A stretch of DNA of 64,000 bases from Propionibacterium sp. oral taxon 192 str. F0372 (GTDB lineage: Bacteria; Actinomycetota; Actinomycetes; Propionibacteriales; Propionibacteriaceae), in assembly GCF_000413315.1 (NCBI RefSeq), contig NZ_KE340297.1:124001-188000 (forward strand), written 5' to 3'. Of this stretch, positions 7,230 to 13,170 are shown piece by piece (the first letter of the stretch is position 1; every line of letters begins with the position of its first letter). A program made the translations under genes and the position numbers. The notes under the pieces are model-generated. The model was not told the DNA's origin and made no database searches. It saw nothing but the letters and a program-made list of their open reading frames with translations.

Positions 7230-8124
7230 TGCCCACCCCCACCAGCATCCGGGGCGTCTCGGCGGCCGAGGAAACCCGGCGGTGCACACGGATCACATTG
7301 CCCACTAGCCCCGCCCAAGCAACAACCATCACAAGGATGACCACCTGGTGCACCCCACCGTGGAAGCCAACCCCATCAAGAATCACCCGCAGATTGACGA
7401 CGACGATCATCCCGCCGACGATGACGCCCATGATCCGCGCAGGCACCTTGGACACCACCAGGGCGGCAAGCGGTGCGGCCACTACTCCGCCGGCCAGCAG
7501 CACCAGGACGATCCCGAGACTGATCCCCGACGTACCGAGTCCCAGGAGAAAACCTGCGGATGCGGCCGAGGAGACCAGGAACTCTGCGGTGCTCACCGAA
7601 CCGATCACTCTACGTGGTGTGGAGCGCCCGGCCGACAGCAGGGTGGTCGTGGTAACCGGTCCCCAGCCTCCGCCTCCCGTGGCATCCACGAAACCACCGA
7701 TCACACCCAGCGGGGCTAGGAACCGGGCACTGTGCCCGGTGGAACCCAGCAAGGTGGGCGGACGCCAGGTGAAGCGGACCAGAATGTAGCCGCCCAAGCA
7801 GGCGAGTAATCCCGACATGATGGGCGCCCCGGCATCGGTAGGCACCGACGACAGCACGGTTGCCCCCAGAAAGGCACCCACCGCCCCGGGTACCCCGAGC
7901 CAGATGACCATCGCCCGGTCGACATTCCCCAACCGCACATGGGCGAGGGCCGATGCAGCATTGGTACCGATCTCCGACAGATGCACCGAGGCGGATGCAA
8001 GGGCCGGGGACAGCCCCACCACCAGCAGCATCGACGAGGAGGTCACCCCGTATCCCATGCCCAGGGCGCCATCAACGAATTGAGCCACCAGGCCTGCCAT
8101 GCCAAGAAGCAGGAGCTTGCGCAT
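7222..8124 (-). CDS. TauE/SafE-type sulfite or sulfate permease
   Basis: 300 residues with about eight hydrophobic segments, beginning LLLLGMAGLVAQFVDGALGMGYG, the characteristic first helix of the TauE/SafE family, and a second repeat starting FLAPLGVIGGFVDATGGGGWGP. The family moves sulfur oxyanions or organosulfonates. In this position, within a sulfate-reduction operon that has no ABC sulfate importer, it is a good candidate for the sulfate uptake system, as in other actinobacteria. The ATG at 8124 shares its A with the cysN stop (TGATG); a GTG one codon upstream is possible. Confidence 0.85.
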   Translation of the reverse strand: MRKLLLLGMAGLVAQFVDGALGMGYGVTSSSMLLVVGLSPALASASVHLSEIGTNAASALAHVRLGNVDRAMVIWLGVPGAVGAFLGATVLSSVPTDAGAPIMSGLLACLGGYILVRFTWRPPTLLGSTGHSARFLAPLGVIGGFVDATGGGGWGPVTTTTLLSAGRSTPRRVIGSVSTAEFLVSSAASAGFLLGLGTSGISLGIVLVLLAGGVVAAPLAALVVSKVPARIMGVIVGGMIVVVNLRVILDGVGFHGGVHQVVILVMVVAWAGLVGNVIRVHRRVSSAAETPRMLVGVGNE

Positions 8125-9437
8125 CACAGTCCTTCCTCATCGAGCCCGACGGCACCGGTGCCGTCGATCATCCCGGCCGCTAGATTCGCCCCTGACTGGG
8201 AATCCACCAGCAGCAACGATCCCGTGCCGCGGTTTTGCTCATAGCTATCGGCCATCACCGGATTGGATAACCGCAGGCGCAGGCGCCCGATGTCGTTGAG
8301 TTCCAGTCGCTCGGCGGGCCGCGCATCCAGCGAATCGAGACCGAGGCGGCCGTCGATGGACGTGACGATTCCCTGCACCGTGCGGGTGGTGTGCTTGACC
8401 AAAACCTTGGCCCCCGGGGTGAGAGCCCGCTCGTGGAGCCACACGACGGTAAGCCTCAGATCCTTGGTCACCACTGGGGCATCCTGTGCGGAGGCAATCA
8501 ATTCACCTCGCGTGATGTCGATCTCGTCGGCCAGCCGCAGGGCCACCGACTGCGGAGCGAATGCCTCGGTCAGTTCCCCGGACGCGGTGTCGATTCCCAC
8601 GACGGTGGTGTGCTTCCCGCTGGGCAGCACCACCACCCGTTCACCCCGGCGAATCACTCCGGAACTGATCTGACCGGCATAGCCCCGGTACTCCCCCAGT
8701 TCCTCGGCGACGGCCGCGCCCTGGGGACGCAGGGCCAGCTGCACCGGAAATCGCAGCGGACGGTCAACCTCACCTGTCTCGGTGTGCCGGGTGGAAGGAT
8801 CATCGGCAGGCAGGGTTTCCAAAAATTCCAGCAGGCTCGGTCCGGTGTACCAGTCCATCTGCCGCGATCTGGACACCACGTTGTCACCGATCAGCGCCGA
8901 GACCGGCAGTACCTGGACCGATTCGATGCCTAGATTGGTCGTCACCCGGTGCACTTGGGCGGCCACCTCGGTGAACCTCTGTTCAGACCAGTCAACAAGG
9001 TCAATCTTGTTGACCGCGACGACGACATGTGGCACCCGCAGCAGGTGTCCGACAGCCAGGTGTCGCCTGGTCTGCTCGACAACGCCGTGCCGGGCGTCAA
9101 CCAAGACCACCAGCACATCTGCGGTGGATGACCCGGTCACGGTATTGCGGGTGTACTGCACGTGCCCGGGGCAATCTGCCAAGATGAAAGACCGCTTGGC
9201 GGTAGCGAAGTACCGGTAAGCGACGTCGATGGTGATGCCCTGTTCCCGTTCGGCGCGCAGGCCGTCGGTGAGCAGGGCCAGGTCAACGTGGCCCAGACCC
9301 TTGTCCCGGGAGACCCGCTCAACGGCTTCGAGCTGATCGGCGAGAACCGCCTTGGAGTCGTGGAGCAGCCGACCCACCAAGGTGGATTTGCCGTCATCCA
9401 CCGATCCGGCAGTGGCCATACGCAGGAGCGTTGCCAT
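8124..9437 (-). CDS. cysN: Sulfate adenylyltransferase large subunit CysN
   Basis: GTPase subunit of ATP sulfurylase; GTP hydrolysis drives formation of adenosine 5'-phosphosulfate from ATP and sulfate. G motifs are visible: GSVDDGKSTLVGRLL (G1, near residue 11), REQGITIDVAYRYF (switch I), DCPGH (G3) and NKIDLVDW (G4). At 437 residues it ends after the EF-Tu-like domains II and III and has no fused APS kinase, consistent with the APS-type reductase encoded by cysH, which does not need PAPS. Its ATG shares a base with the cysD stop (TGATG). Confidence 0.95.
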   Translation of the reverse strand: MATLLRMATAGSVDDGKSTLVGRLLHDSKAVLADQLEAVERVSRDKGLGHVDLALLTDGLRAEREQGITIDVAYRYFATAKRSFILADCPGHVQYTRNTVTGSSTADVLVVLVDARHGVVEQTRRHLAVGHLLRVPHVVVAVNKIDLVDWSEQRFTEVAAQVHRVTTNLGIESVQVLPVSALIGDNVVSRSRQMDWYTGPSLLEFLETLPADDPSTRHTETGEVDRPLRFPVQLALRPQGAAVAEELGEYRGYAGQISSGVIRRGERVVVLPSGKHTTVVGIDTASGELTEAFAPQSVALRLADEIDITRGELIASAQDAPVVTKDLRLTVVWLHERALTPGAKVLVKHTTRTVQGIVTSIDGRLGLDSLDARPAERLELNDIGRLRLRLSNPVMADSYEQNRGTGSLLLVDSQSGANLAAGMIDGTGAVGLDEEGL

Positions 9438-10336
9438 CAGAAATACCCTTCTTTCTTGCGATCCTCCATGGCGGCCTCGGTGAGTCGGTCGTCGGCCCTG
9501 GTGGCGCCACGCTCGGTGATCCTGGTCAGGGCCACCTCCTCGACGACCCGGGCCACGGTGTCGGCGTCGGATTCGACGGCGCCGGTGCAGCTCATATCCC
9601 CGACGGTGCGGTAACGCACCCGACGACGCTCGACACGTTCACCGGCGCGAGGTTGGTTTGCCTCCCCAACAGCGAGCCACATCCCGTCGCGCCGGAAGAC
9701 GTCCCGGTCGTGGGCGTAGTAGAGGGAAGGCAGTTCGATGTTCTCGGCCTCAATCCAGCGCCACACGTCGAGTTCGGTCCAGTTCGATAGAGGGAAGATC
9801 CGCACGTGTTCGCCCACCCGGTGGCGGGGGTTGTACAGATTCCACAACTCGGGGCGCTGGTTGCGTGGATCCCACTGACCGAACTCATCGCGCAGGGAGA
9901 CCACCCGTTCCTTGGCCCGGGCCTTCTCCTCGTCGCGCCTGCCTCCTCCGAAGACGGCGTCGAACCGCCCGGCCGCGATCGCATCGAGCAGGGGCAGGGT
10001 CTGCAAAGGATTGCGGGTCCCGTCGGCACGCTCGGCCAGACGCCCGTCCTTGATGTAGTCCTGCACCTTGGTCACCACCAGTCGTAACCCGAGCCGTGCC
10101 ACAGTGCGGTCACGGTAGTCGATGACCTCGGGGAAGTTGTGCCCGGTATCGACGTGCAGCACCGGGAACGGCACCGGGCAGGGCCAGAACGCCTTGGCGG
10201 CCAGGTGCAGCATCACCACCGAATCCTTGCCGCCGGAGAACAGCAGCACGGGGCGTTCAAGCTCGCCGACCACCTCCCGGAAGATGTGGATGGCCTCGGA
10301 TTCGAGCATCGCTAGTTGATCCAATTGCCTACTCAT
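9437..10336 (-). CDS. cysD: Sulfate adenylyltransferase small subunit CysD
   Basis: 299 residues from the ATG at 10336. PP-loop ATP pyrophosphatase fold with LLFSGGKDSVV near the N-terminus and HVDTGHNFPEVIDYRD, both hallmarks of CysD, the subunit that adenylates sulfate. GDMSCTGAVESDADTV and the C-terminal ERGATRADD segment also match. I prefer this start over an in-frame one 39 nt upstream because it overlaps the cysH stop as ATGA, like the other junctions of this operon. Acts as a heterodimer with CysN. Confidence 0.95.
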   Translation of the reverse strand: MSRQLDQLAMLESEAIHIFREVVGELERPVLLFSGGKDSVVMLHLAAKAFWPCPVPFPVLHVDTGHNFPEVIDYRDRTVARLGLRLVVTKVQDYIKDGRLAERADGTRNPLQTLPLLDAIAAGRFDAVFGGGRRDEEKARAKERVVSLRDEFGQWDPRNQRPELWNLYNPRHRVGEHVRIFPLSNWTELDVWRWIEAENIELPSLYYAHDRDVFRRDGMWLAVGEANQPRAGERVERRRVRYRTVGDMSCTGAVESDADTVARVVEEVALTRITERGATRADDRLTEAAMEDRKKEGYF

Positions 10337-11088
10337 CGTGTTTCCTCCACCCCAGGCAGTTGGTGCAGCCCGCATTCGGTCTTCGCATGCCCGGCCCAGC
10401 GACCGGACCGGGGATCCTCACCGGGTGCGACGGGTCTGGTGCACGGTTCGCAGCCGATCGACGGATAACCCTCATCGAGCAGCCAGTTCACCGGAATACT
10501 GTGACGGTCGGCGTACTCCCGCACTTGCTCATCAGTCCATGCCACGATGGGGTTGATTTTGACCATCTGGTGGGCCTCGTCCCATTCGACGAGCCCGGAG
10601 TGCGCCCGCAGCGGGTTGTCCACCCGTTTCAGTCCGGTCACCCAAGCCTCGTAGGAACCGAGTTCCCGATTGATCGGTTCTACCTTGCGAATCATGCAGC
10701 ACTTAGCCGGGTCATGTTCAAAAAGCCGAGGTCCCCATGTGGCCTCCTGTTCGTCGACGGTGAGTCGCGGCAAAGCCTCCACCAAGGTGATGTCCAGAGA
10801 ATGTGCCAATGCGTCGCGGGTGCCGAGGGTCTCGGCAAAGTGGAACCCGGTTTGCAGGAACAACACGTCCACACCCGGAATCCGTTGGGCGAAGAGGTGC
10901 GGGACGATGGTGTCGGCGGCCATTGAGCAGGCGATGACCAGATTGCGTCCGAAGGTCTCGGCAGCCCACCGCACCACCTGCTGAGCGGTGGCACCCGCCA
11001 GTTGCCCGGCCCCCCACTCGGCGATGCGACGCAGTTCTTCTGGGCCGCGCACCCGGCCCGGTCCGTGGGTGAGTGGTTCGATGCTCAT
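10333..11088 (-). CDS. cysH: Adenylylsulfate (APS) reductase CysH
   Basis: 251 residues. Reduces activated sulfate to sulfite using thioredoxin. The two cysteine pairs of the [4Fe-4S] APS reductases are present (KCCMIRK and GCEPCTRP), which separates it from the cluster-free PAPS reductases of enterobacteria, and the catalytic cysteine is in the C-terminal ECGLH. This agrees with the absence of an APS kinase in the operon. The ATG overlaps the stop of the sulfite reductase gene (ATGA). Confidence 0.95.
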   Translation of the reverse strand: MSIEPLTHGPGRVRGPEELRRIAEWGAGQLAGATAQQVVRWAAETFGRNLVIACSMAADTIVPHLFAQRIPGVDVLFLQTGFHFAETLGTRDALAHSLDITLVEALPRLTVDEQEATWGPRLFEHDPAKCCMIRKVEPINRELGSYEAWVTGLKRVDNPLRAHSGLVEWDEAHQMVKINPIVAWTDEQVREYADRHSIPVNWLLDEGYPSIGCEPCTRPVAPGEDPRSGRWAGHAKTECGLHQLPGVEETR

Positions 11089-12776
11089 CGCAGTGCCTCC
11101 TCATTAACCCGGTGCACCCACCGGGCGAAGCTCTCCTGGTCGTTTCGTTCGCCGAGGAATCTTCGGATGACTCGTTCCAGATAGTCGGGAAGATCAACGG
11201 CGTCCACTTTGAGGGCCCGCAGAGTCTTTCCCAGACCGGGGAGTTGCCGGTTCCCGGAGGTCAGCCCACCGCCAAGATGCACCTGGAAGGTCTCCACCTC
11301 TGACCCATCGGCGCCCTTGGCCAGCTGACCCTTGAGGCCGATGTCGGAGGTCTGGATACGCACGCAGGAGTTGGGGCAGCCGTTGATCGCAATGGTGATC
11401 GGCACGTCGATGTCTACCCCAGCGAAGCGGTTCTCCAACTCGGCGATGACCGTTGCAGCGGTGTCCTTGGTGTTGACGAAGGCCATCTTGCAGTACTCGA
11501 TACCGGTGCATGCCATGGTGTGGCGGCGGAATCTGGACGGGGATGCGCTGAATCCCAGCTTCTCGGCGCGGGCGATGAGACCGGCCACTTGGTGCGGGTC
11601 GACATCAATGACCAGGATTTTCTGCAATGGAGTGAGCCGCAGCCTGCGGGAACCGGCTGCCTCGGCGGCCTCCGCGAGGCCGATTAGCGAGCTGCCGCTG
11701 GTGCGCCCGACGATCGGGGTAAGTCCCACCCAGCGGCGTCCGTCAACCTGCTCGTGCACCCCAACGTGGTCTGGCTCTCCCTGGGGCACGACGGGGATGC
11801 CGTCGGCGAGCCGGTAACCGAGGTAGTCTTGTTCCAACACCTTCCGGAATTTCTCCACACCCCAGTCGGCGAGTAGGAATTTCATCCTTGCCTTGTTGCG
11901 CAGCCGCCGATATCCGTGGTCGCGGAAGATCGAGATCGTCGCGTGCCACACTTCGAGGGCCTGGCCGGGGGCGACGAAAACCCCCAGCCGCTCCCCCAGC
12001 TTCGGCGAGGTGGACAGCCCGCCGCCGATCCAGATGTCCCAGCCCGGGCCAAGTTCGGGATGAACGACCCCGACGAAGGAGATGTCGTTGATCTCGGGCA
12101 GCACGTCCACCGAGGGATGCCCGGTGATGGCGGTCTTGAATTTCCGGGGCAAGTTGGCCAACTCCGGATCGCCGATGTAGCGCTCCCGGATCTGCTCAAT
12201 CAGCCCGCTCGGGTCGATGACCTCGTCGGCGGCTATTCCGGCAACCGGGGAACCCAGGATGCCGCGTGGGGTATCTCCGCAGGCCTCGGTGGTTCGCAGC
12301 CCGGCGGCCTCCAGCCGCCGCCAGATCTCCGGTACGTCGGCGATGTCGACCCAGTGCAGTTGCACGTTCTGCCGATCGGTGATGTCTGCGGTGTTGCGGG
12401 CGAAGCGCCGGGAGATCTCGCCGACCACCTTGAGTTGTCCGGTGGTGATCGCCCCGCCGTCGAGCCGGACTCGCAGTAGGAAGTGTTCCCCGGACAGTTC
12501 CTCCGGGCTCAGTGAAGCGGTCCGGGAGCCGCCGATGGACTGGTCACGCTGGGTGTAGAGCCCCCACCAGCGGAAACGGCCATGCAGATCGTCGGCGGGA
12601 ATAGAACCGTGACCCGCAGCGGCATAGATGGATTCGATGCGTTCGCGCACCCTGAGCGGATTCTCGACGGCTTTGAACTCCTCATTGGCGTTGAGGGGCG
12701 TGCGCCCGTCGACGGCCCATTGGCCGTTGGACTTACCGGATGACGATGGACGAATACGTGTGGTGTTGGCGTTCAT
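11085..12776 (-). CDS. sir: Ferredoxin-dependent sulfite reductase (siroheme, 4Fe-4S)
   Basis: 563 residues, typical of the single-subunit NirA/Sir family that reduces sulfite to sulfide with ferredoxin. The four cluster ligands are in TMACTGIEYCKMAF and INGCPNSCVRI. Two ferredoxin-like half domains are seen, with the siroheme-binding TDRQNVQLHWV in the first. A ribosome binding site GAGAAGG stands about 6 nt before the ATG. It is the first gene of the sulfur operon; its 99-nt upstream gap to a small leader ORF contains a GC hairpin. Nitrite reductases share the fold, but all neighbours are sulfur genes, so sulfite is the likely substrate. Confidence 0.93.
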   Translation of the reverse strand: MNANTTRIRPSSSGKSNGQWAVDGRTPLNANEEFKAVENPLRVRERIESIYAAAGHGSIPADDLHGRFRWWGLYTQRDQSIGGSRTASLSPEELSGEHFLLRVRLDGGAITTGQLKVVGEISRRFARNTADITDRQNVQLHWVDIADVPEIWRRLEAAGLRTTEACGDTPRGILGSPVAGIAADEVIDPSGLIEQIRERYIGDPELANLPRKFKTAITGHPSVDVLPEINDISFVGVVHPELGPGWDIWIGGGLSTSPKLGERLGVFVAPGQALEVWHATISIFRDHGYRRLRNKARMKFLLADWGVEKFRKVLEQDYLGYRLADGIPVVPQGEPDHVGVHEQVDGRRWVGLTPIVGRTSGSSLIGLAEAAEAAGSRRLRLTPLQKILVIDVDPHQVAGLIARAEKLGFSASPSRFRRHTMACTGIEYCKMAFVNTKDTAATVIAELENRFAGVDIDVPITIAINGCPNSCVRIQTSDIGLKGQLAKGADGSEVETFQVHLGGGLTSGNRQLPGLGKTLRALKVDAVDLPDYLERVIRRFLGERNDQESFARWVHRVNEEALR

Positions 12777-12875
12777 GAGGCCTTCTCAGTGAGGGTGAGG
12801 GCCTACGCCTGCCAGAGGTAAGGTGATGTCCGGGATCCGGGCGCGCAGGCCCGGCACGGATGGGTCGGGCTAAGT

Positions 12876-12962
12876 TCAGCGGACCCGACAGATGGCGGCA
12901 GCAACGTCGGCAAGATCGACGTGATGCCGTCTCACCAGAATGTCGCTCTGCGCCTCGAACAT
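12876..12962 (-). CDS. 28-residue leader peptide of the sulfur operon (putative cysteine attenuator)
   Basis: A small ORF 99 nt upstream of sir, on the same strand: ATG at 12962, TGA at 12876. It starts MFEAQSDIL and ends RRHHVDLADVAAAICRVR. From memory, the pattern R-x-H-V-D-L followed about eight residues later by a Cys near the C-terminus matches the putative leader peptides annotated before sulfur genes in streptomycetes and relatives. A -10-like TATGTT (minus strand, 12975-12970) ends 7 nt before the ATG and no ribosome binding site is present, so it is probably leaderless. Between its stop and sir lies CCGGGC / GCCCGG, a possible attenuator stem. Inference: Cys-tRNA supply while translating the Cys codon near the end sets expression of sir onward. 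Confidence 0.7.
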   Translation of the reverse strand: MFEAQSDILVRRHHVDLADVAAAICRVR

Positions 12963-12974
12963 GTTGTGCAACAT
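12961..12974. promoter_or_regulatory. Inverted repeat ATGTTG-N2-CAACAT over the leader start
   Basis: Perfect 6-bp inverted repeat with a 2-nt centre, covering the putative -10 and the first two bases of the leader ORF start. A regulator bound here would block the sulfur-operon promoter. The cognate regulator is not in the window. Confidence 0.5.
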
Positions 12975-13115
12975 AACCCACGACCGGCATCGATTCACAA
13001 CCGGATACATGAGATTTCAACAAAGGTGACCCTAAATTCATCGCGGTGACGAGTGATTTCCTCTCCAGGAAAACATGGGACGGCACAGGGCGGCTCTGCT
13101 CCTCCCCGGCCACTG

Positions 13116-13167
13116 GCCATTGTGGCAGATCGGCAGGTGATTCCTCCCACCGATCTGCCACAATGGC
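13116..13167. promoter_or_regulatory. Perfect 18-bp inverted repeat at the murT promoter
   Basis: GCCATTGTGGCAGATCGG at 13116-13133 is repeated exactly, inverted, at 13150-13167 with a 16-nt spacer. The right arm contains CACAAT (13159-13164), which ends 6 nt before the GTG of murT and fits as a -10; the left arm carries the same hexamer facing the sulfur operon. It may be an operator or a pair of divergent promoters. A transcript reading through it would form a strong hairpin. Confidence 0.65.
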
Positions 13168-13170
13168 GAG

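Follow-up and report, generated by a model that had tools for sequence, protein, structure and literature searches.

Short leader ORFs that precede sulfur genes in Actinomycetes conserve the motif HVDL at the peptide level and, at a fixed place after it, a UGU codon followed by a pyrimidine (UGU-Y) at the nucleotide level. The window (the whole stretch of 64,000 nucleotides analyzed here) harbors such an ORF of 28 codons ahead of the sulfate assimilation genes sir-cysHDN. Judged by its sequence, this ORF is a below-threshold, previously missed member of an already known leader family. It probably serves as a cis-acting cysteine sensor of sir-cysHDN, in which a ribosome would stall at the UGU codon and thereby operate an RNA switch of the trp type. 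With the window leader, a missed member in front of a sulfate-assimilation cluster is added to the class-wide set of cysteine leaders. The UGU-Y rule outweighs this single new member. It is a family-wide and cheaply testable statement on one codon as an amino-acid sensor.

The leader ORF and its gene cluster

The leader ORF is located on the minus strand at 12876..12962 (ATG at 12962..12960, stop codon TGA at 12878..12876) and encodes the peptide MFEAQSDILVRRHHVDLADVAAAICRVR. The preliminary description had placed a 28-residue ORF at exactly these coordinates but had left the strand unstated. The conserved core RRHHVDLADVAAAIC (12888..12932, minus), which was delimited by alignment with 52 distinct relatives, extends from R11 to C25. 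It contains HVDL with the cysteine nine residues past the aspartate (HVDLADVAAAIC), a position termed D+9 in the following. The Cys codon is TGT (12890..12888), and its continuation into TGT CGG (12890..12885) obeys the UGU-pyrimidine rule. Together with the following pyrimidine, the codon (UGUC, 12887..12890, minus) is the predicted sensor, based on codon statistics across the family. It is the lone Cys codon of the leader; a run of Cys codons, as in the mycobacterial polycysteine leaders, is not present in the window ORF.

The sulfate assimilation genes follow on the same strand, and the leader stop is separated from the start codon of the first one by 99 nt. This gene is sir (11085..12776, minus), which encodes a sulfite/nitrite reductase hemoprotein according to NCBIfam nitrite/sulfite reductase matches and whose orthologs have the leader as well. 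It is succeeded by cysH for a (phospho)adenylyl-sulfate reductase (10333..11088, minus, NCBIfam) and by cysD and cysN for the small and the large subunit of sulfate adenylyltransferase (9437..10375 and 8124..9437, respectively, both minus), which were assigned by profile matches. A Shine-Dalgarno-like GAGAAGG of sir is found in the sequence at 12781..12787 (minus).

A −10 element of the TANNNT type (TATGTT, 12970..12975, minus) is positioned 7 nt before the leader ATG. A weak −35-like hexamer (TTGTGA, 12995..13000, minus) can be read from the sequence at a 19-nt spacer from the −10 element, and a strict sigma-70 scan returned no promoter. An alternative in-frame ATG at 13010 would yield a product of 44 aa and is located upstream of the TATGTT box. 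The start at 12962 is preferred because the box sits 7 nt ahead of it. Among candidate leader ATGs of the family (starts giving 24-30 aa), 18/39 have TANNNT 6-8 nt upstream, compared to 0.69% of positions (binomial tail 8e-29, with kinship among the sequences not corrected for), and 12 of these 18 boxed candidates are exactly 28 aa long. The position of the −10 box and its enrichment throughout the family make a leaderless transcript likely for the window, as the preliminary description had assumed for the start of the ORF.

Two inverted repeats are found in the same region. The first one, ATGTTG-CA-CAACAT (12961-12974, minus), overlaps both the start codon of the leader and its −10 box. The promoters of relatives do not show this repeat, which is perhaps due to chance, perhaps an operator. 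The second one is a near-perfect 21-nt repeat (CTGGCCATTGTGGCAGATCGG / CCGATCTGCCACAATGGCGAG) with a 16-nt spacer at 13113-13170, before a divergent murT-like gene, and its 17-nt arm has no other copy in the genome.

Conservation and family membership

The sir genes and their upstream DNA were gathered from 95/197 Propionibacteriaceae genomes and from 80 named genomes. A leader-type ORF precedes sir in 46/89 Propionibacteriaceae loci and in 12 named loci, so the conservation in relatives that the preliminary description had looked to is indeed present. These sir leaders are stop-terminated ORFs that lie mostly 60-150 nt ahead of sir. They end with R-x-[HFY]-V-D-[LF]-x-R-[VT]-x-S-x-x-C, which is followed by 0-12 further residues. 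In a leave-one-out profile built from the syntenic relatives with the window excluded, the window peptide scores 30.1 bits (E 1.5e-8), and the remaining matches reach at most 10.5 bits.

The window peptide further matches the NCBIfam model NF042934 (“putative leader peptide,” cis_reg_atten, Actinomycetes) with 18.8 bits (E 9e-4), which is under the curated cut-off of 27 bits. It is the top match of this model across the 2.7-Mb genome and is located exactly before sir. The window peptide deviates from the consensus of NF042934 at two positions, namely D+3 (D in place of R) and D+6 (A in place of S). With these two substitutions and a score below the cut-off, automatic annotation would therefore miss the window leader. 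At E<=2e-5, the model is found in 175/297 genomes of the class and in 0/14 control genomes. Pfam gave no match. Rfam yielded no credible match, and its best hit (mir-1992) was rejected as an artefact of the inverted repeat at 13113-13170.

Members of the NF042934 family precede sir and cysH-like genes as well as genes for a sulfonate ABC transporter and for relatives of alkanesulfonate monooxygenase and SfnB. Others are located before genes for mercaptopyruvate sulfurtransferase, cysteine synthase, a sirohydrochlorin chelatase relative, and taurine dioxygenase. The earlier impression that H-V-D-L followed by Cys marks leader peptides of sulfur genes is borne out by these positions and by the NF042934 match. 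Polycysteine leaders of the mycobacteria-like type (e.g., LTKRRAVDLCRVAGCCCCCCSC, loci L204-L219) fall inside the same family. The single Cys had been considered “a different design” from such leaders. This does not hold, as the single-Cys form is the common one of a family that includes the polycysteine leaders and makes up the majority of the sir leaders (40/57).

Some family members are positioned before less expected genes. An HVDL...Cys leader is found ahead of a gene for the alpha subunit of a 2-oxoacid:acceptor oxidoreductase (L265, L266), a gene that would not be expected under the control of a cysteine sensor. A DctA/GltP-type symporter gene is preceded by family leaders at several loci (L005, L010, L012-L016, L027, L034), and a role of this symporter in cystine or cysteine uptake is a guess.

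Among the named loci (L131-L193), those of Microbacterium, Agromyces, Rothia, and Arthrobacter almost always lack the HVDL leader before sir, and in these genera sir is probably controlled by other means. The sir loci of Promicromonospora (L139, L140, L143, L144, L146, L150, L152) contain a Cys-rich short ORF of another kind (e.g., CAMPTCACDCCRSCQ), at a distance of about 245-305 nt ahead of the sir anchor. This ORF represents a candidate for an unrelated cysteine leader.

The UGU-pyrimidine rule

Among sir leaders of the usual spacing, synonymous codon usage at the conserved residues (R, H, V, D, L, R, and S) largely resembles that of the sir genes, and selection at these positions therefore acts on the peptide. 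At the sensor position, Cys is encoded by TGT in 44/48 sir leaders; in the corresponding genomes, the sir genes contain 147 TGC and 2 TGT codons. The same codon is found in 95/96 further family members with Cys at D+9, most of which precede other genes (the observation covers family loci L005-L034 and L204-L273 and sir leaders L035-L203). Where these peptides have an additional Cys at D+2, seven codons before the sensor position, its codon is TGC in 40/42 cases. Within single peptides, TGC at D+2 is combined with TGT at D+9 40 times and the reverse never occurs. At D+7, D+8, D+11, D+12, and D+14, Cys is encoded by TGC or by a mixture of both codons. A count independent of the profile choice was obtained with a DNA pattern for HVDLxRxxSxxC, which occurs in the 297 genomes at 35 places with TGT (33 genomes, 11 genera) and at 0 with TGC. 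Exceptions to the rule are the TGC codons in the sir leaders of Saccharopolyspora and Kineococcus.

The preference extends one base past the codon. TGT is followed by a pyrimidine in 151/153 leaders (94/96 family members and 57/57 sir leaders), compared to 22% of the Cys codons in sir genes. The residues that follow the sensor Cys are heterogeneous (R, C, L, P, H, S, Q, W, or a stop). The open-access papers searched contained no report of the UGU-Y rule. The single Cys codon near the end of the ORF, put forward as sensor in the preliminary description, probably has this role.

The rule can be rationalized by decoding. The single tRNA-Cys, with anticodon GCA, pairs with UGC by Watson-Crick geometry and with UGU by G-U wobble. 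A 3′ pyrimidine is a poor decoding context, as known from classical suppressor-context work. Taken together, wobble reading and the poor 3′ context would therefore cause UGU-Y to respond more strongly than any other Cys codon when Cys-tRNA runs short. We give an even chance to the general form of this idea, namely that the Actinomycetes leader family senses, instead of Cys codons in general, one UGU-Y codon in a set position behind HVDL. Read by wobble and in a weakly stacked context, this codon would be hypersensitive to tRNA-Cys charging (or sulfur-dependent modification), so that one codon can replace a polycysteine run. Dependence on a sulfur-containing modification of tRNA-Cys is an additional and more speculative possibility, and HVDL at its fixed distance may add a contribution of the nascent chain. 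If true, the rule would explain why most leaders of the family need one Cys codon only, and it connects the single-Cys with the polycysteine leaders.

RNA segments around the leader stop

Four RNA segments can be differentiated around the stop codon of the window leader, all of them on the minus strand. Segment 1 (CGGGUC, 12882..12887) can pair with segment 2 (GCCCGACCC, 12862..12870), which lies just 3′ of the stop and can pair with either segment 1 or segment 3. Segments 3 and 4 form the hairpin CCGGGC-CUGCGC-GCCCGG (12837..12854), which starts 21 nt after the stop and is terminator-like without a U-tract. The GC stem CCGGGC/GCCCGG noticed earlier behind the ORF corresponds to this hairpin (CCGGGC-CTGCGC-GCCCGG in the DNA, 12854..12837). 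A scan for U-tract terminators found none in the window; one relative (L041) has TTTT.

The four-segment layout recurs within one Propionibacteriaceae clade, to which the window belongs, with segment 1 directly after UGU and segment 2 after the stop. GCCCG is found shortly past the leader stop in most of 21 aligned relatives, and the CCGGGC / GCCCGG hairpin follows about 20-31 nt past the stop in the clade. The hairpin core is invariant, hence a covariation analysis is uninformative. A hairpin common to all sir leaders was considered and rejected, as the CCGGGC hairpin is confined to this one clade. The layout is therefore not the mechanism of the whole family, and leaders outside the clade must use other RNA parts. 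In Propionicimonas-type sir leaders (L043, L048, L051, L052, L055), HVDL is lost and a Cys-Cys end (TGT TGC) is kept; a GCGCCCG segment behind the stop is also retained, in most cases together with the hairpin.

The competing antiterminator and terminator pairings can be formed in 20/20 sequences. Relative to shuffled sequences, pairing 1:2 is more stable by an average of 2.9 kcal/mol and pairing 2:3 by 2.3 kcal/mol. When a ribosome is modelled at UGU and RNA polymerase has just cleared segment 3, the probability that this segment pairs upstream is 0.84. It amounts to 0.52 for a ribosome at the stop, where the 3:4 hairpin reaches 0.99. The contrast between the UGU and stop positions is above the shuffle median in 20/20 sequences, which come from related species and of which few are significant alone (0.147 for the window). 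At equilibrium, the 3:4 hairpin beats pairing 2:3 in most sequences even when a stalled ribosome is included, and any switch must therefore be kinetic.

Proposed mechanism and alternatives

Reasoning from the kinship with the mycobacteria-like polycysteine leaders, the window leader would respond to cysteine by ribosome stalling. Transcription would start at or next to the ATG, as suggested by the −10 position, and a 70S ribosome would initiate at once on the leaderless mRNA. When UGU reaches the A site, the R-x-H-V-D-L-x-x-V part of the nascent chain would be placed 8-11 residues back in the exit tunnel. The UGU codon with its following pyrimidine would be read by the single tRNA-Cys via G-U wobble, and scarce Cys-tRNA would lead to a pause of the ribosome. 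A ribosome paused at UGU would cover segment 1 alone. In the folding model, segment 2 would then be free to pair with the emerging segment 3, which would delay or prevent the 3:4 hairpin and allow the expression of sir. With ample cysteine, the ribosome would advance 12 nt to the stop and cover segment 2, so that the 3:4 hairpin could form and expression would be lowered. The fall in expression would occur by termination, probably aided by Rho or without a U-tract. Transcription attenuation is, on this modelling, the leading mode of output, though unproven, and translation attenuation is its main rival.

In translation attenuation, the same sensor would act on a different output, as the paused ribosome would free the Shine-Dalgarno sequence of sir from a masking pairing. 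This output has been described for cysteine genes of M. smegmatis, which are reported to be attenuated by polycysteine leaders (PMC13236596). It would also fit with the leader codons about 16-24 nt before UGU, which pair downstream above shuffled controls (t about 3.4 for the best codon). The accessibility of the Shine-Dalgarno sequence, however, is nearly equal in stalled and free RNA (difference +0.034, t 1.95, 54 leaders) and remains at 0.47 in every state of the window leader. As the additional downstream pairing does not center on the Shine-Dalgarno sequence either, sequestration of this sequence by the leader as the switch is unsupported by folding, and we consider translation attenuation possible but rather unlikely.

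A true arrest peptide is a less probable explanation. Here, free cysteine or another sulfur metabolite, and not a lack of Cys-tRNA, would be the signal for HVDL in the exit tunnel to stall the ribosome at the Cys codon. TnaC, an arrest peptide that responds to tryptophan, is the model for such a reaction. The conservation of R-x-HVDL-x-R-V at a fixed distance of 9 (or 10) from Cys is in line with it, as is the majority of single-Cys leaders, in which plain codon starvation would give a weak signal. The demand for UGU at the codon level, however, points to decoding and not to the peptide or a ligand alone.

It is more doubtful still that UGU-Y is kept for a reason other than decoding, for example because the codon overlaps with a structured RNA element, a pause site of RNA polymerase, or the site of an RNA-binding protein. 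The purely nucleotide-level nature of the preference and its reach of one base past the codon would suit such a site. But the UGU codon shows no excess of pairing with downstream RNA (difference −0.005), and base-pairing was rejected as the cause of its conservation. Furthermore, the motif persists over about 27 families with different downstream RNA, and the bases ahead of it are variable. Finally, a chance ORF without function, to which the match under the curated cut-off (18.8 vs 27 bits) might point, is contradicted by the leave-one-out E of 1.5e-8, the synteny, the −10 box, the conserved length, and the UGU codon, and is very improbable.

Comparison with known systems

The window leader shares with the NF042934 leaders the RRxHVDLxxVxxxxC core, the Cys at D+9, the UGU sensor codon, and the position of a short ORF before sulfur genes. 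It resembles a trp-type attenuator in its four segments with potentially competing 1:2, 2:3, and 3:4 pairings and in a putative sensor codon 4 codons before the stop; it differs in having one sensor codon and no U-tract after 3:4.

Polycysteine leaderless short ORFs in mycobacteria are said (PMC13236596) to have been described by Canestrari in 2020 as cysteine-responsive attenuators. They are leaderless, Cys-coding upstream ORFs before sulfur or cysteine genes, as the window leader with its predicted leaderless start would be too. Polycysteine members of the family with VDLCRVAGC(C)n have the same core and carry UGU at D+9. Ribosome occupancy of a Cys-rich ORF upstream of cysA2 has been reported (Shell 2015, PMC4633059).

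Leader peptides of cys operons have been predicted in Mycobacterium, Propionibacterium acnes, and Bifidobacterium (Seliverstov 2005, PMC1262725). These leaders are similar to the window leader as short ORFs before cys genes, with Cys codons near the stop and no classical terminator. They are described as runs of Cys codons, and the passages considered here do not mention the single-Cys HVDL form and the codon rule. Compared to the mycobacterial polycysteine leaders, the window leader has one Cys codon in place of a run, is positioned before sir-cysHDN, and may have a transcriptional output.
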